Source: Geothrix sp. PMB-07 (GTDB lineage Bacteria; Acidobacteriota; Holophagae; Holophagales; Holophagaceae). Taken from it: a stretch of 64,000 bases of DNA. The notes under the pieces are model-generated. The model was not told the origin of the DNA. It ran no database searches and saw only the letters and a program-made list of their open reading frames with translations. The stretch spans positions 1,240,992 to 1,304,991 of the forward strand of contig NZ_CP132333.1 in the NCBI RefSeq assembly GCF_030758935.1, written 5' to 3'. Within the stretch, counting starts at the first letter, position 1. Each line of letters begins with the position of its first letter. Shown here piece after piece: positions 1,437 through 30,426 of the stretch. Both the position numbers and the translations under genes were made by a program.

Positions 1437-1531
1437 GATCTCATCCCAGAGATTGTCTCAATATTTGGAATCACTATCTCAGCTATGAATCGCCAAGCTT
1501 CGACAGGGTAATGGCGGTGCATACGTCTTCA

Positions 1532-1588
1532 GGTCACATTTCGACCGCATGGACTCGCCGCTGAATGTCTGATGGTACAAATGTGACC
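1532..1588. repeat. 10-bp inverted repeat in intergenic region
   Basis: GGTCACATTT at 1532-1541 is matched by its exact complement AAATGTGACC at 1579-1588, with 37 bases between. The pair lies between two leftward genes, just after the 159-aa gene stops and before the membrane-protein gene. It could be a regulator site or the ends of a decayed small element. It has no U-run typical of a terminator. Confidence 0.35.
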
Positions 1589-1607
1589 AAAGTTGTTTTT
1601 GGGGGGG

Positions 1608-2087
1608 CTACTTAAACAGGTCGGCTTCAAGGCTTCCAACGACGCTATCGGCTAGGGCCCTCTGGCCATTCGCACCGCCCATCGCAGTCATGGCCCAATC
1701 GGAACCGAGTGCCATGATTCGACCTGCCTCGTCGCGGATCTCGACCTCAATTCGGGCGTCTCCGGTGGCCCAGAAATCGGTCTCCACGAGCACCACGGCC
1801 ACCTTGAGGCTATAGGCGCCATGTGCGGTGGTGATGTCTTTCAGGCCCTGCTTTAGGGTCTTGAGGAACTCGACCGAACGCTCCTTGGCGGCCCATTCAA
1901 CCTCGCCACTCCAGGTGATGCCACGAGAGCGGTCGAAGCCTGGGGCCACCCAGAAATAGCAATTCTTGTTGGTGCCACGCTTGGCGGTCTCAAGGTAGTA
2001 CTCCCGCGGGAGGGTCCGCGGGTAGTCGCTTGCCTGGGCATTGAGTGCTGTCAGCGCGAGCGCGAGGCCAAGGATAAGGGGTTTCAT
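1608..2087 (-). CDS. secreted hypothetical protein
   Basis: A 159-residue protein with a clear Sec signal peptide (MKPLILGLALALTALNAQA, cleavage about residue 19). The mature part is a small mixed alpha/beta domain with no motif I recognise. It contains alternating hydrophobic strands and ends in a helix. The ATG is preceded by AAGGAG on the coding strand, about 6 bases upstream, which supports this start. The gene stands alone between the membrane-protein gene and the AT-rich region before parA. Function is unknown and export to the periplasm is the only firm statement. Confidence 0.6.
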   Translation of the reverse strand: MKPLILGLALALTALNAQASDYPRTLPREYYLETAKRGTNKNCYFWVAPGFDRSRGITWSGEVEWAAKERSVEFLKTLKQGLKDITTAHGAYSLKVAVVLVETDFWATGDARIEVEIRDEAGRIMALGSDWAMTAMGGANGQRALADSVVGSLEADLFK

Positions 2088-2140
2088 GTGATCTCCTTCT
2101 AATAAATCTATCGGCCTTTGATGATTTAAACATTACGATT

Positions 2141-2166
2141 GAAACATCGAAACTTTCCATGTTTCG
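2141..2166. promoter_or_regulatory. nested inverted repeat, candidate operator or partition site
   Basis: The gene-free stretch 2088-2403 is clearly AT-richer than its neighbours. Within it GAAACAT (2141-2147) pairs with ATGTTTC (2159-2165), and a shifted pair CGAAAC (2148-2153)/GTTTCG (2161-2166) overlaps it. Clustered GTTTC/GAAAC palindromes upstream of a parA gene are the kind of site bound by a ribbon-helix-helix partition protein. The role is inferred from position. The 69-codon open frame across this stretch has no ribosome binding site or recognisable product and I do not call it. Confidence 0.35.
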
Positions 2167-2343
2167 TCGTTTTGAACCTCAGAAACCCAGAACACCAGAA
2201 CTATGAGGCGCTTGAACTCATAAATACTATAACACCATGCGAATCAAGACTGTCCGATGATGGTTTCGGGGTGGAGGCGTTTTGGCGTTTTGCTGTTTGC
2301 GACGCCAAAACATCGGGCGTAAAAAATTATCGAAGGTTTTATG

Positions 2344-2367
2344 TTTAGAACTTTAGAACTTTAGAAC
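2344..2367 (+). repeat. three tandem 8-bp direct repeats upstream of parA
   Basis: TTTAGAAC occurs three times without gaps at 2344-2351, 2352-2359 and 2360-2367, ending 36 bases before the parA start. Short direct repeats just upstream of a ParA gene are typical of binding sites for its RHH partner, which usually acts as both centromere-binding protein and autorepressor. That role is inferred; the repeats themselves are exact. Confidence 0.55.
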
Positions 2368-2403
2368 AGCGATAGAATGCCGATGACGGAAGCGGGAGGA
2401 CAC

Positions 2404-3066
2404 ATGCTCATCAGTCTCATCAACCTCAAGGGTGGCTCTGGGAAAACCACCTACTCCAAGGAGCTGGCCGCACTCCTGGCGGAGTTTGGCCTCCTCGCCA
2501 AGGGTCTGGACTTGAACCCGGAGAACGGCGATTTCGGGGCTTGGGCCGAACTGGCGACCCTTCCCTGCCGCAGCCTCTACCCGGCCGACCTCGGCCTGCT
2601 CGAACAGGCGGCCAAGGGCAAACAAACCTACATAGCCGACTGTCCTCCTTGGGAGGGAGAGGAGACCCGCACTGCCTTAGCCTATTCGGCGGGAATTCTG
2701 GTGCCCGTTGGCCCCAGCCCACAGGACCTGCGCGGCCTCGGGCGAACTCTGGACCTGGTTCGCGCCGCGAAGGCAAATGCAAACCCTGAGTTGCGCGTGG
2801 CGATCCTCGGAACAAACTACCGTGCCAACACTGGCTGGTGGCGGAGCTGGGCAGCGGCTGTGGAAGCCGCAGCCAGCCCAGAGGAGGGCATCTTTTTCGC
2901 GGGGCTCGTCCAGGAGCGCCAGGGCCTGGTCGATGCTTTTGGCCGCGGTGTTGCCGCGTGCCAACAACCCAACGCCGCTGGGGTGGAGGTCCGCGAGGCG
3001 ATGCTCCGTGTTGTGGAAATCCTCGGCCTCGGCATCCCGGCTCCCGTTGTGCAGGAGGTTTTGTGA
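2404..3066 (+). CDS. parA: ParA-family partition ATPase
   Basis: The 220-residue product starts at ATG 2404, chosen because GGGAGGA sits 3-9 bases upstream; an earlier in-frame ATG at 2377 lacks this. The deviant Walker A motif KGGSGKTT is at residues 9-16, including the signature first Lys of ParA/MinD ATPases. The A'-box has D36 (GLDLNPENG) where most ParAs have DxDPQ. The Walker B-like segment is IADCPPW (about 77-83). Its length and lack of an N-terminal HTH match small plasmid (type Ib) ParAs, which pair with RHH proteins. The next gene is such a protein and overlaps the stop codon. It probably segregates or stabilises an integrated plasmid-like element. Confidence 0.85.
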   Translation: MLISLINLKGGSGKTTYSKELAALLAEFGLLAKGLDLNPENGDFGAWAELATLPCRSLYPADLGLLEQAAKGKQTYIADCPPWEGEETRTALAYSAGILVPVGPSPQDLRGLGRTLDLVRAAKANANPELRVAILGTNYRANTGWWRSWAAAVEAAASPEEGIFFAGLVQERQGLVDAFGRGVAACQQPNAAGVEVREAMLRVVEILGLGIPAPVVQEVL

Positions 3067-3362
3067 GCACCGACCCGAAAGCCTGGCTCCAGGGCGGCGC
3101 CAAGGCGCGCCCGAAACACCTCAATCAGGCGGAGGCTAAGGCCCCGTCTGCGAAGGTAGTCGGGGGCAGGCCTCGCGCCCATGCCCTTGGCGCGGAGCGC
3201 ATCAACTGCCGCGTTGCCGCCGACGTTGCGCGAGAACTTCGTGTGCTTCAGCTCGACACGAAAGTGGCGTTGGGCCTCCTCGTTGAGGAGGCGCTCCGCC
3301 TGGCGCTTGCCCAGCCAACCTTCCGGGAGCGCTTCACCACTAAAACGGAGGTGCTCTTGTGA
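3063..3362 (+). CDS. ribbon-helix-helix DNA-binding protein, ParG/ParB-like partner
   Basis: A 99-residue protein begins at GTG 3063, overlapping the parA stop (GTGA), so translation is probably coupled. Residues 1-42 are a basic, Pro/Gly/Ala-rich flexible tail. Residues 46-84 fit a ribbon-helix-helix fold: a strand (RINCRVA), then two helices ending in LLVEEALRLALAQ. A disordered basic N-tail plus C-terminal RHH is the layout of ParG-type centromere-binding proteins of type Ib partition systems. Likely targets are the TTTAGAAC triple repeat or the GAAAC palindromes upstream of parA. No sequence-level family match was possible, so the RHH call rests on pattern. Confidence 0.65.
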   Translation: MSTDPKAWLQGGAKARPKHLNQAEAKAPSAKVVGGRPRAHALGAERINCRVAADVARELRVLQLDTKVALGLLVEEALRLALAQPTFRERFTTKTEVLL

Positions 3363-20385: not shown

Positions 20386-20732
20386 GGGGCCCTCCGCGAA
20401 CCAGTGTACCCGGAGTGGGGAGGTGGGGGCGTGCCCACACCTCCATGCGCCCAGGGAAAACGTCCCTTCCTGGCCTGGAGAGCAGGCTGCAGATTCAGGT
20501 CTGAAGAACTGATCTCATTTTCCACTTATCGGAAACAGTGACTTCAATAAATTACAAGATCAGTTCTAACCGTTTCATTTTCAACCGATGTGCGTAATTT
20601 ATCAATCGAGTGTGTAAGAAAGTGTAAGTTTGATCGGGTGAAAATATTGTTAAAACATTAATATTTTCATTATTTATAGACATATTTGCAACGCTTGAAA
20701 AGCCTGAAAATCCGGAATACATTTGAGCACTT
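20386..20732. promoter_or_regulatory. AT-rich divergent control region with inverted repeat
   Basis: This 347-base gap separates leftward purSQ from the rightward HTH/receiver gene. The right two thirds are AT-rich compared with the flanks. It contains GAAAATATT (20640-20648) and its complement AATATTTTC (20660-20668) around 11 bases, and a GTGTAAG pair near 20611-20625. I see no gene. The palindrome is a plausible operator for the XRE-type regulator encoded immediately downstream, whose family usually binds such sites. Confidence 0.45.
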
Positions 20733-22001
20733 ATGTTTCACGAAAAATTAAGATCGATACGCCAGCAACAGCGAATTTCGCTTGATAAGCTGTCATTGCT
20801 TGCGGGGGTGAACCGGGCCACCATCTATCGTATTGAGATGGCTGCTGTTTCTCCCCGTGTTGACACGCTAGAGGCCATCTGCAAGGCCCTAGGTGTATCG
20901 ATTATTGACCTGTTTATGGAATGGCCTGCCGCGGTCAATGATCCAAAAAATGAGGTTTATCCATCCAGCGACTTTGAAACCCGATCCAAGGGAGGAGTGA
21001 CCCTCAATGTTTCGCCTTTCCCAGCTGGGTTGGGCCAGCGGCCGAGGGCCCCGAAGGGCGGGAAACGCGGCTCCAGGGGACGGCAGGTGGCGTGGGTGCA
21101 TGTGAATGAGGCGGTTGCGGAACTGATCCACATCCGCAATGCAGCTGACTTCGCCACGCGGCCCATTCAGTTTGAACCCGCGCCTTTTCTGCCACTCATT
21201 CCGCAGAGAGATCCGAACCTGCACCGCGTGCTCGAATCCACCCTGGATTGCTTTTCGGCGAACCTGGGCCTCCTGCGCTCGAATCCCTGCCTGCGTGTGA
21301 ACCTGGTGTCGCCGGAACCCGCTTGGGAAACGAGGGGGGAAGGGCCCACGGCCGTTCCGGAGCACGGCATCTCCATTGACTGGACCTGCGCTCTGGACCG
21401 CAAGGGATTGGCCTCCATCGAAGAGGCCCTGGCCGCATCCCTGCCCCGTGAGGAGGCCGGCCAGGAGTCTTCGATCCGGGTGTCCTGGGCGGTGGAGCCG
21501 CCCGGCCTTGCGGAGGTTGCGGCTGAGGCGGTCGGGAGCGCGACAGTGAGAATCCGGATGGCTTGTCAGCTGCAGCCGCACACCCCAACACGGGAGGAAT
21601 GCATGGGCCAAAGAGAAACACACGCCGCCACGATTCTGGTCGTCGAGGACGATCAGATGCTCCGCCAGTGCATGGTTGAATACCTGGGGCTGATCGGCCA
21701 CCCCTCCCTGGAAGCCTCCAACGGGATCGAGGCGGTGGAGATGGTGAGGCGCCACGGGCTTTCGCTCGGCCTGGTCTTCATGGATATCGACATGCCGCTG
21801 ATGACCGGGCTCGAGGCCATCCAGGAGATCGAAGGTGAGTTCCCGCTTTCGCGCATCGTGGTGATGTCGGGGGCAGACCCCGATCTAAGCGAGATCCGGA
21901 GTGGGATGAACGCCTTGCAGGGTTTCATCCATAAGCCGTTCTCGCTCAAAGAAATCTTCAGCGTGATCGCCCGGCTCGAAGCCAAACCCATGGCCTGTTG
22001 A
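20733..22001 (+). CDS. XRE-type HTH, degenerate histidine-kinase ATPase-like domain and receiver fusion
   Basis: A 422-residue fusion. Residues 6-61 are an XRE helix-turn-helix (ISLDKLSLLAGVNRATIYRIE). Residues about 119-280 read like a decayed HATPase domain: WVHVNEAVAELI, then RDPNLHRVLESTLDCF where kinases have the N-box, then a weak G-box-like tail. No HisKA histidine box or clear ATP-binding residues are seen. Residues about 300-416 are an intact receiver with D306/D307, phospho-Asp D351 (FMDIDMP), S379 and K401. A strong internal SD before M291 could yield the receiver alone. The following gene is a PAS protein 14 bases away. Confidence 0.75.
   Translation: MFHEKLRSIRQQQRISLDKLSLLAGVNRATIYRIEMAAVSPRVDTLEAICKALGVSIIDLFMEWPAAVNDPKNEVYPSSDFETRSKGGVTLNVSPFPAGLGQRPRAPKGGKRGSRGRQVAWVHVNEAVAELIHIRNAADFATRPIQFEPAPFLPLIPQRDPNLHRVLESTLDCFSANLGLLRSNPCLRVNLVSPEPAWETRGEGPTAVPEHGISIDWTCALDRKGLASIEEALAASLPREEAGQESSIRVSWAVEPPGLAEVAAEAVGSATVRIRMACQLQPHTPTREECMGQRETHAATILVVEDDQMLRQCMVEYLGLIGHPSLEASNGIEAVEMVRRHGLSLGLVFMDIDMPLMTGLEAIQEIEGEFPLSRIVVMSGADPDLSEIRSGMNALQGFIHKPFSLKEIFSVIARLEAKPMAC
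21592..21605 (+). promoter_or_regulatory. internal ribosome binding site for a receiver-only product
   Basis: GGGAGGA (21592-21598) lies 4-5 bases before an in-frame ATG at 21603, residue 291 of the fusion, exactly at the linker before the receiver domain. The match is better than that in front of the full-length start at 20733. It predicts a second, roughly 131-residue protein made of the receiver domain only. Confidence 0.55.
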
Positions 22002-22015
22002 GCCGGGAGCACCCC

Positions 22016-22522
22016 ATGACCCACGTGTGTTCCTGGTGCAAGACGAACATCTATCTTGAGGAGGATCCCGAGTCCTTCGGGGGAGTCACGCACGGCATCT
22101 GCCAGGCCTGTGCACGGAAGCTGTTCCAGGAAATCCCCATCCAGATGGACCACTACCTCAACGAGATGGACACGCCGGTGCTGCTGGTCAATCAGGACAT
22201 CACCACCACCTTCGCCAACCAATCCGCGCTTCAGATGCTTGGCGCGGGAGATGGGGAGCTTTCCGGCCTGAAGCTGGGAGCGGTGCTTCTCTGTCCGTAC
22301 GCCCAGTTGAAGGAGGGCTGCGGCCGACAGATCCATTGTTCGGGCTGCACCATTCGGCGCTGCGTGGAGATCACCCGCGATACAGGGGCGCCCTTCTTCG
22401 AGGTGCCAGTCACCCTTTCCCGCGCAGGGACCTCAGAGCCCTCGGAACGGCCCTTCCTGCTCTCCTCGATTCGTCTGGGAAGCATGGTGGTTCTGAAGTT
22501 GGACCCCCTGGCCGAAGCCTGA
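22016..22522 (+). CDS. PAS-domain sensor with N-terminal zinc-finger-like Cys pairs
   Basis: A 168-residue soluble protein from ATG 22016 (GGGAG upstream). The N-terminus has two CxxC pairs (CSWC and, after about 26 residues, CQAC) forming a probable zinc finger. A PAS fold follows, beginning DTPVLLVNQDITTTFANQSALQML. It is interrupted by an unusual Cys-rich insertion, CGRQIHCSGCTIRRC, which could bind metal or an Fe-S/redox cofactor. There is no kinase or output domain. It lies 14 bases after the HTH/receiver gene and is its likely sensory partner. Redox or metal sensing is inferred. Confidence 0.68.
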   Translation: MTHVCSWCKTNIYLEEDPESFGGVTHGICQACARKLFQEIPIQMDHYLNEMDTPVLLVNQDITTTFANQSALQMLGAGDGELSGLKLGAVLLCPYAQLKEGCGRQIHCSGCTIRRCVEITRDTGAPFFEVPVTLSRAGTSEPSERPFLLSSIRLGSMVVLKLDPLAEA

Positions 22523-22554
22523 GGCGGCACGACGGTGGATTGCCGATCCGGGTC

Positions 22555-22905
22555 CTATCGGGGGTTCCAGCGGTGGGCCTCCAAATCAAGGTTGCCCAGG
22601 TCATCCACGTCGATGCCCTCGTCACGCAGTCGTCCGATCTGTTCGAAAGCGCCCCACCAGCGCCCACGGCTGGGCACGTAGCCGCGGGTGTTGACCACCC
22701 GGTGCCAGGGCAGCTTGGTGCCCTCCGGCAGGCCCGACAGCACCATGCCCACCTGGCGGGGCCGCCGCGGGAATCCCGCCAGGGCCGCCACTTGGCCATA
22801 GGAGGCCAGCTTGCCCTTCGGAATCCGTCGCACCACGGCCAGCACGAGGGCGCGGAAATCCTTTTCAGGAGATTCGTCGGACGGCTGTGCCTTTGCCCGG
22901 GGCAT
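22555..22905 (-). CDS. alkyltransferase-like (ATL) DNA-repair protein
   Basis: A 116-residue protein matching the DNA-binding half of O6-methylguanine-DNA methyltransferases (IPKGKLASYGQVAALAGFPRRPRQVG). The acceptor Cys of the PCHRVV motif is replaced by Trp (W67 in PWHRVV), the hallmark of alkyltransferase-like proteins. These bind O6-alkylguanine without removing it and hand it to nucleotide excision repair. The C-terminal extension after about residue 85 is short and acidic. It starts one base after the stop of the DUF2203 gene on the same strand, so the two are co-transcribed. Confidence 0.82.
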   Translation of the reverse strand: MPRAKAQPSDESPEKDFRALVLAVVRRIPKGKLASYGQVAALAGFPRRPRQVGMVLSGLPEGTKLPWHRVVNTRGYVPSRGRWWGAFEQIGRLRDEGIDVDDLGNLDLEAHRWNPR

Positions 22906-28251: not shown

Positions 28252-30426
28252 CTACTCCTGCTCCGGATCTCTCTTGCCCATGCGGTTCCAGTAGAAGGTG
28301 CGGAAATCTCCGGGGCTCATGGGGTGTCCGTAGAGGAAACCCTGGGCGCGGTGGCAGCCGCGGTCCAGCAGGAACTTGGCCTGATCGGCGTGCTCCACGC
28401 CCTCGGCGATGAGTTCCATGCCGAGGCTCTGGCCCATGGCGATGATGGCGGTGGCGAGGCTGCGGCTCTGGGAGGCGTTGGTGAGCGACTGCACGAAGGA
28501 TTGATCGATCTTGAGGATGTCGAAGGGGTACTGGTGCAGGTAGCTGAGGGAGCTGTAGCCTGTTCCGAAATCGTCCAGCGCGAGGGTGATGCCCAGTTCC
28601 TTCATGCGTTGCAGGGTGGCGATGGCCCGGTCGGAGCTTTCCAGGAGGACGCTCTCCGTGACCTCCACTTCGAGGCAGCGGGGATCGGCGCCGCTGAAGG
28701 CGATGCACAGTTCGAGACGCTCCATGAGCTGGGGATCCAGCATCTGGACGCTGCTCAGGTTCACCGCCACGCGGATGGGCGGCAGCCCTTCCTCTTGGAG
28801 GCTCCGGGTGAAGCGCAGCGCTTCCCGGAAGACGTATTCGCCCAGCTCCACGATCAGGCCCGTTTCTTCCGCCACGGGGATGAATTTGGCTGGGGCGATG
28901 GAGCCCATCTCCGGGTCATCCCAACGGAGCAGGGCCTCCATGCCGAGAATCTCGCCAGAGCGTGCGTCGATCTGGGGCTGGAAGTGCACGTGGAAGGCGC
29001 CATGGGCCAGACCGTGGCGCATGCCCTCCTCCAGTCGGAAACGCTCCTGCAGGCGAGAGCTCATGGAGGGATCGAAGAACTGGAAACGGTTCCGGCCCGC
29101 CTCTTTGGCGGCATACATGGCGCGGTCCGCGTTCTTGAGGACGGTGTCGGCGTCCCGGCCATCCTGGGGCATGAGGGCGATGCCGATGCTGGGCGTCACC
29201 ACCAGCTGATGGCCTTCCAGCGAGATGGGCTGGCGCAGCACGTCGAGGATGCGGGTGGCCACCCGGGCGGCATCCGTGGGAGTGGTGATCTGGCTGAGGA
29301 TCAGGCAGAATTCGTCGCCCCCGATGCGGGCCACGGATTCGCCATCGCTGTTGTCGGCGCGGGCCAGCAAGTCTGAGGGGCGCAGGACGCCGGAGATCCG
29401 GGCGGCCACTTCCTTGAGCAGATCGTCGCCCAGGGCATGGCCAAGGGTGTCGTTGATCCGCTTGAAATTATCCAGGTCGAGGTAGAGCAGGGCGGCTGCC
29501 TTGGGATAGGGCGACGTCTCGCTGCGGGCGAGGTCGATGAAGAGCCGCTCCAGGGTGGAGCTCAGGGCGTAGCGGTTCCACAGGCCCGTGAGGGCGTCGT
29601 GATAGGCCATGTGCCGGATGCGCTGCTCGAAGACTTTCCGCTCGGTGATGTCGCGGAGCATCACCAGCACTTTGTCCTCGGCGCAGGCGATGAAGCGGCC
29701 CTCCCAGAACCTGGGCTCCTCCTGGAAGGGATCTGCAAATTCCAGGCAGCGCATCTCCGCGGGATTCGCCAGGGCCTCCTGGCAATGCTGCATCGCCAAG
29801 ACGGCCAGATGGTCTGGCAGCAATTCGTCGATCTGGCCCAGCGGCGGTCGGCTCGTGTTGCTCTCACCCTGGATGCCGGAATGAACCAGGGTGACCACAC
29901 CCTTCGCCGTGAGCGTGAAGATGGGATCGGGATGGGCCGCAAAGAGGGAGTTCAGGGTTCGGGTGCGCTCCTGCAGGGCAGCAAAGGCTTCGTTGGCACG
30001 CAGGACGTGTCTCAGCCGATAGGGCAGATGCTTCCAATGCAGGGGCTTGGTGAGGAAATCGCTGGCGCCCACCTGGTAGGCCCTCTGGATGGAAGCCAGA
30101 TCCTCCATGCTGGTGAGCATCACCACGGGCAGGTCTTCCTTGGACCAGGTCTTCCGGATTTCACTGCAGATGCCGAAGCCATCTTCGCCGACCAGTACCA
30201 CGTCGAGCAGCACCAAGTCCGGCCGGAGGTCGCGGATGAGTTGAAGGCCGTTTGTCCCATCGCGCGCGGTGCGGCAGATGAAGCCGTCGGCTTCGAGGGT
30301 GTGCTCGACGGCGCGCAGAATGATCGGGTCATCATCAATGGCGACCACCAACCGCTTGGACCCTTCGGAAGGATGGAGGGGTTCCTCCATCCGGCCTTCC
30401 ATGGGGCCCTTGGGCTGTTGAGTCAT
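28252..30426 (-). CDS. response regulator with REC-PAS-GGDEF-EAL domains
   Basis: A 724-residue cytoplasmic c-di-GMP enzyme. Domains: receiver about 25-140 (acid pocket DDDP, phospho-Asp D75 in LLDVVL, K128), PAS-like about 155-265, GGDEF about 275-450 with intact RIGGDEFCL (369-373) and EAL about 465-720 with EALLR (497-501) and DDFGTGYSSL. Both catalytic motifs look whole, so it may synthesise and degrade c-di-GMP. The usual RxxD inhibitory site before GGDEF is not evident because of an inserted loop. Its stop lies 54 bases upstream of exbD on the same strand; the cognate kinase is not nearby. Confidence 0.9.
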   Translation of the reverse strand: MTQQPKGPMEGRMEEPLHPSEGSKRLVVAIDDDPIILRAVEHTLEADGFICRTARDGTNGLQLIRDLRPDLVLLDVVLVGEDGFGICSEIRKTWSKEDLPVVMLTSMEDLASIQRAYQVGASDFLTKPLHWKHLPYRLRHVLRANEAFAALQERTRTLNSLFAAHPDPIFTLTAKGVVTLVHSGIQGESNTSRPPLGQIDELLPDHLAVLAMQHCQEALANPAEMRCLEFADPFQEEPRFWEGRFIACAEDKVLVMLRDITERKVFEQRIRHMAYHDALTGLWNRYALSSTLERLFIDLARSETSPYPKAAALLYLDLDNFKRINDTLGHALGDDLLKEVAARISGVLRPSDLLARADNSDGESVARIGGDEFCLILSQITTPTDAARVATRILDVLRQPISLEGHQLVVTPSIGIALMPQDGRDADTVLKNADRAMYAAKEAGRNRFQFFDPSMSSRLQERFRLEEGMRHGLAHGAFHVHFQPQIDARSGEILGMEALLRWDDPEMGSIAPAKFIPVAEETGLIVELGEYVFREALRFTRSLQEEGLPPIRVAVNLSSVQMLDPQLMERLELCIAFSGADPRCLEVEVTESVLLESSDRAIATLQRMKELGITLALDDFGTGYSSLSYLHQYPFDILKIDQSFVQSLTNASQSRSLATAIIAMGQSLGMELIAEGVEHADQAKFLLDRGCHRAQGFLYGHPMSPGDFRTFYWNRMGKRDPEQE

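Follow-up and report, generated by a model that had tools for sequence, protein, structure and literature searches.

A Geothrix protein with an XRE-type DNA-binding head, a probable kinase remnant and an intact receiver, and a Holophagaceae family that may explain it

The gene at 20733-22001 (forward strand) of the 64,000-nucleotide stretch of Geothrix sp. PMB-07 analysed here (the window, to which positions refer) encodes a DNA-binding domain at its start, a receiver at its end and, between them, a region that resembles a decayed histidine kinase. An earlier note on this DNA had called this order unusual and suggested that the protein could be a switch, with the receiver acting on its DNA-binding part. 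We asked how such an order may have come about and how the protein may work. Our preferred answer, to which we give a probability of about one half, is that the protein is a soluble, receiver-controlled transcription factor that regulates its own gene, derives from a DNA-binding hybrid histidine kinase and would be driven by another kinase. The reading frame was confirmed from ATG to stop over 422 amino acids; it comprises an XRE-HTH, a linker, a probable pseudo-CA remnant and the receiver, and no hydrophobic segment of membrane type is predicted anywhere in the protein.

The results for the two ends of the protein are clear. The XRE/Cro-C1 HTH occupies residues 1-62 (20733-20918, +) and is matched by Pfam HTH_3 at residues 6-59 with an E-value of 1.4e-10, above the Pfam cut-off, as are HTH_26 and HTH_31, which identifies it as a Cro/C1 HTH; its GC3 is only 0.50-0.57. 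The receiver (residues 301-412; 21633-21968, +) is matched by Response_reg at 1.9e-16, also above the cut-off, and is modelled with a pLDDT of about 90. All its key residues are kept, namely E305/D306/D307, the acceptor D351, S379 and K401, so that the protein carries the acidic pair, Asp, Ser/Thr and Lys of a response regulator. With this set intact the receiver should be phosphorylatable, judging from the receiver family at large. At both ends the protein is as the earlier note had described it.

The middle of the protein required a closer comparison with kinases. Neither Pfam nor NCBIfam gives a match between the HTH and the receiver; there is no HisKA match in Pfam, and with it no DHp histidine of a hybrid kinase, and no HATPase_c match with its N, G1 and G2 boxes. 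Residues 63-114 (20919-21074, +) form a linker, located where relatives have a PAS domain and the DHp, in which the composition shifts at about codon 85; its other frames were inspected by eye and no frameshifted DHp was seen. On the other hand, residues 115-179 (21075-21269, +) resemble the start of a CA domain, with its helix 1, a strand and the N-box helix, in three tests that agree in one register. For the first, 62 kinase cores were taken from related hybrid kinases and combined in a profile, to which residues 118-176 align gap-free at the start of the CA domain. The score of this profile over the whole middle was equalled by 2 of 5000 shuffles, and few of the control windows from non-kinase ORFs (about 1200) scored as high, most of these being the window protein itself. 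With hhalign, residues 119-179 match in the same register with a score of 20.6, compared to 12.0 +/- 2.1 in shuffles, of which none in 300 was as good; the probability reported for this match is only about 3%. In pairwise comparison, residues 115-179 match L069, a hybrid kinase encoded in the same genome, at z=6.0, sharing GR.V and NEAV.E, and this match starts just past the DHp/CA junction, at residue 115. Other kinases gave z from below 0 to 3, and the decayed relatives L033, L034 and L057, described below, gave only 2.1-2.5 in the same register.

We conclude that residues 115-179 are probably a kinase remnant. In a MAFFT alignment of residues 113-422 with kinases, used because the whole-protein version placed kinase helix 1 on the HTH, the G1 and G2 motifs are missing. 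Within the remnant, the N-box Asn is replaced by Cys173. The resulting N-box, LDC(F/L), is common to the window protein and the decayed relatives and was not seen in the other kinases collected.

Residues 180-285 (21270-21587, +), where the sequence comparison is not significant, would be the rest of a pseudo-CA without the G2 helix, a continuation of the remnant that we favour by a little. When hhalign was run globally against the complete CA domain, 24 of 300 shuffles did as well, which is not significant. Of the decayed ATPase-like region proposed earlier, the part from 115 to 179 was therefore recovered, while the part from 180 to 285 was not significant by sequence. We find it unlikely that residues 115-285 have no kinase origin and represent a spacer or an unknown sensory domain. 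Such an origin would fit the lack of Pfam and NCBIfam matches in the middle, the outcome of the global comparison and the chance-level matches, such as RibF, that occur in the same stretch, but it leaves the common register of the three tests unexplained, together with the N-box change shared with the decayed relatives and the kinase core that fills the same place between HTH and receiver in the relatives. RibF was considered as a relative of the middle and rejected: a direct search with the middle region across 60 relatives gave weak matches only, several of them to RibF, whose look-alike segment (E about 0.02-0.08) is evidently due to chance. Because of these look-alikes, single matches at E about 0.01-0.1 were set aside as evidence.

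Structure prediction was carried out for the same region. The AlphaFold model of residues 113-422, whose input alignment was made up of hybrid kinases found in viral-contig loci, has a mean pLDDT of 74.5. Its middle (pLDDT mostly 55-80) consists of a helix, a strand, the N-box helix, two strands, a helix and three strands, which is compatible with the Bergerat order without the G2 helix. Since the alignment consisted of kinases and biases the result, this model is not independent proof. A predicted structure unrelated to GHKL ATPases, which the earlier note had named as the outcome that would speak against it, was not obtained, but the GHKL-like model was built on that kinase alignment. A single-sequence AlphaFold model (pLDDT 35) was too poor to judge the fold. 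The top row of a Foldseek search was the hybrid kinase ShkA; the list contained no GHKL rows and, being dominated by matches to the receiver, is silent on the middle.

An explanation for the domain order is offered by the relatives of the protein. They were collected in two rounds, the first searched with the HTH and the second with a profile of HTH and PAS together. Among 77 genomes of Holophagaceae this gave ten relatives; 16 other genomes of the class yielded none, and 396 sampled genomes of the phylum contained no match that covers both HTH and PAS. In seven of the ten, the domains run XRE-HTH, PAS, kinase core, receiver (L033, L034, L057, L059, L060, L058 and L111, the last with its sequence cut at a contig end). 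These relatives account for the unusual order of HTH, kinase remnant and receiver, although the window gene itself has neither PAS nor DHp.

The relatives differ in the extent to which the kinase is preserved. L059 (G083) passes Pfam for HTH_3, PAS_3, HATPase_c (4.7e-18) and Response_reg, and both L059 and L111 (G085) keep the H-box His, the N-box Asn, a DTGCG G1 box, a PFFTTK F box and a G2-like stretch. L059 (positions 1465-3246 of its locus) and L111 are apparently intact DNA-binding hybrid kinases with the DNA-binding domain at the N-terminus; the literature searched, which included few subscription papers, yielded no description of a hybrid kinase with an XRE domain at this end. The H-box histidine is lost in the five others. 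The H-box reads TAEFSNL in L033, L034 and L057, in which HATPase_c is not found, TTEFSNL in L060, in which HATPase_c is under the cut-off, and TARFSNL in L058, in which the CA domain (HATPase_c) is deleted. Among L033, L034 and L057, dN/dS is 0.08-0.13 for the HTH and 0.11-0.16 for the receiver, compared to 0.20-0.47 for the pseudo-CA, indicating that the HTH and the receiver are under strong purifying selection and the pseudo-CA less so. The family comprises several states of kinase loss with both ends kept. In L062, L112 and L113 only the XRE-HTH and PAS are found, kinase and receiver being absent.

These relatives bear on whether the window gene is functional at all. A dying gene, the functionless fragment of a decaying hybrid kinase, could present itself as a species-specific insert with an eroded core and no orthologue, as this one does. 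We consider this very unlikely, given a frame open over 422 codons, the intact HTH and receiver residues, a receiver GC3 of 0.83 and the purifying selection on the decayed relatives.

The relation of the window gene to the family can be read in two ways. Its HTH is 46-48% identical to the family HTH, with E-values from 1e-13 down to 3e-17, whereas the other XRE proteins collected are clearly further away (about 1e-8). The window protein shares with the family this XRE-HTH subfamily, an intact C-terminal receiver and a degenerate core, which in the nearest members has the same N-box change; it differs from the family by the lack of PAS, DHp and the TAGGC promoter motif described below, and by its locus. 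The HTH-PAS profile A2 matches the window protein at positions 1-63 only, and neither this profile nor the Pfam scan detected a PAS domain after the HTH. No orthologue of the window gene was found in the 77 family genomes, which we count against our main reading. The locus also shows its own features. In all nine relatives examined, purS and ogt adjoin, in the order araC, purQ, purS, ogt, and the window carries between purS and ogt a two-gene insert (20400-22555), made up of the regulator gene and the small PAS gene that follows it on the same strand, at which no transposase or clear target-site duplication was seen. Within the gene, codons 1-85 have about 49% GC (GC3 about 0.43-0.57) and are followed abruptly by 69% GC in the same ORF; the composition after codon 85 is typical of the genome. 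The AT-rich promoter and codons 1-85 make up a composition island at 20521-20987, which fits a chimeric origin.

Two histories would fit these data: the gene may be a shortened, relocated member of the family, as suggested by the nearest HTH and the shared N-box change, or a foreign XRE head joined to the C-terminal half of a hybrid kinase from this genome, as suggested by the own-genome match, the composition step and the start at the DHp/CA junction. In the second history, an XRE HTH and its promoter would have been fused independently to that half of an ordinary local hybrid kinase which contains CA and receiver, without descent from the family. We regard such a fusion as a possible but rather doubtful origin. 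The best pairwise match of the middle is indeed L069 and begins exactly at the DHp/CA junction, GC jumps from 49% to 69% near codon 85, the locus differs from that of the relatives, and the receiver tree does not group the window receiver with those of the family. However, a single clade of window and family receivers is not rejected in that tree (p-AU 0.374), the family HTH is nearest to that of the window protein, and the LDC(F/L) N-box is common to the window protein and the decayed members. The receiver tree is thus compatible with either history.

We then consider the promoters, where the family leaves a further mark. TAGGC starts 81-85 bp before the start codon in eight of the nine relatives with readable upstream DNA (L059, L058, L112, L113, L033, L034, L057 and L060, the exception being L062). 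With its inverted half-site it forms a perfect TAGGC-N6-GCCTA in L059 and a copy with one mismatch in L058, L112 and L113; the half-site is poor in the other four. A dyad at a locked position ahead of a gene for an XRE protein usually marks autoregulation, and the recurrence of TAGGC at this distance in eight of the nine relatives, with its half-site in the best cases, speaks for an action of this HTH family on its own promoter. TAGGC with its inverted half-site is thus a candidate operator of the family.

TAGGC is absent upstream of the window gene, which again counts against our main reading. The upstream region of the window gene (20521-20732, +) is AT-rich, with 32% GC compared to 63% for the window, and contains a perfect inverted repeat, TGAAAATATT-N11-AATATTTTCA, at 20639-20669, which is a candidate autoregulatory operator. 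The palindrome noticed earlier near 20640 is therefore exact. Its 10-bp arms have their centre some 79 bp upstream of the ATG, a position comparable to that of TAGGC at -81 to -85 in the relatives. Arms of at least 10 bp occur in about 2% of Markov resamples of the AT-rich stretch, so that the repeat is suggestive, not compelling. It is the sole copy in the 4.24-Mb genome and a regulon could therefore not be read from it.

For the family as a whole, we propose a course of events that we hold slightly short of even. A Holophagaceae lineage of soluble, N-terminal-XRE hybrid kinases that signal to their own promoter would have lost catalysis repeatedly while keeping DNA binding and the receiver, converting kinases into phosphorylation-controlled transcription factors, and the window gene would be the extreme product of this conversion.

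Our preferred reading of the window protein, a self-regulating transcription factor under the control of its receiver, suggests the following mechanism. The XRE HTH would bind an inverted repeat as a dimer; the probable target is the repeat at 20639-20669, upstream of the gene itself. The kinase part of the protein cannot work, because the DHp histidine is missing and the N-box Asn is a Cys. As the receiver residues are kept while its own kinase is dead, the phosphate on D351 would come from another kinase or from a small phosphodonor. The CA remnant may link the HTH to the receiver, and phosphorylation of the latter would alter how the HTH pair is presented to DNA. An action of the receiver on the DNA-binding part, as the earlier note had it, would fit this anatomy and the upstream motif conserved among the relatives. 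The protein would in this way regulate its own two-gene unit, which includes a downstream PAS protein.

We compared this arrangement with known regulators. Ordinary DNA-binding response regulators likewise combine an intact receiver with a DNA-binding domain and have no kinase. Their usual order is receiver, then HTH, whereas in the window protein an XRE HTH comes first and a kinase remnant lies between.

ChiS of Vibrio cholerae, a hybrid sensor kinase, itself makes direct contact with DNA (PMC8092284, PMC10208484). It resembles the window protein in being kinase-derived, in having a receiver and a DNA-binding domain of its own and in acting as a transcription factor. ChiS, however, is embedded in the membrane and binds DNA through a C-terminal domain of a helix-sheet-helix variant, whereas the window protein has an N-terminal XRE HTH, no membrane segment and a kinase core that is largely lost. 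The HTCS of Bacteroides also unite a kinase, a receiver and a DNA-binding domain in a single chain. Until phosphorylated, their receiver holds the DNA-binding domain in check (PMC11253607), and the window protein may work in a similar manner. The HTCS have a membrane sensor, an active kinase and the DNA-binding domain after the receiver, unlike the window protein with its N-terminal HTH and no active kinase. The window protein thus falls in neither class: it differs from both in the type of DNA-binding domain and in the end of the chain that carries it, and it lacks the hallmarks of a kinase.

Proteins that combine a sensor kinase and a DNA-binding regulator are rare; the best-known examples are ChiS and the Bacteroides HTCS, both of which carry the DNA-binding part at the C-terminus. 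The proteins described here have an XRE domain at the N-terminus for this part, and no membrane segment. As intact, point-decayed, domain-deleted and minimal forms occur in one bacterial family, the steps from kinase to transcription factor can be viewed side by side. This natural series allows us to ask what role a pseudokinase core plays between receiver and DNA-binding domain, and also bears on whether the loss of kinase activity changes the phosphate donor of the receiver. The window gene alone is of modest importance, as a single species-specific regulator.

Finally, we looked at the neighbouring genes. The gene at 22016-22522 (+) begins 14 bp past the stop codon, is probably an operon partner of the regulator and encodes 168 amino acids; it is absent from 49 related genomes at E 1e-10. 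The protein has a Cys-rich N-terminus (CxxC...CxxC) followed by a PAS-like domain, whose PAS matches are weak (E 0.001-0.006) and which contains a second Cys cluster, C-x9-CG-x5-C-x2-C. It may work together with the regulator as a sensor of redox state or metals and, more speculatively, may supply the sensing once given by the lost PAS domain. Elsewhere in the window, the gene at 28252-30426 (-) encodes a receiver, PAS, GGDEF, EAL protein, an ordinary c-di-GMP signalling architecture.
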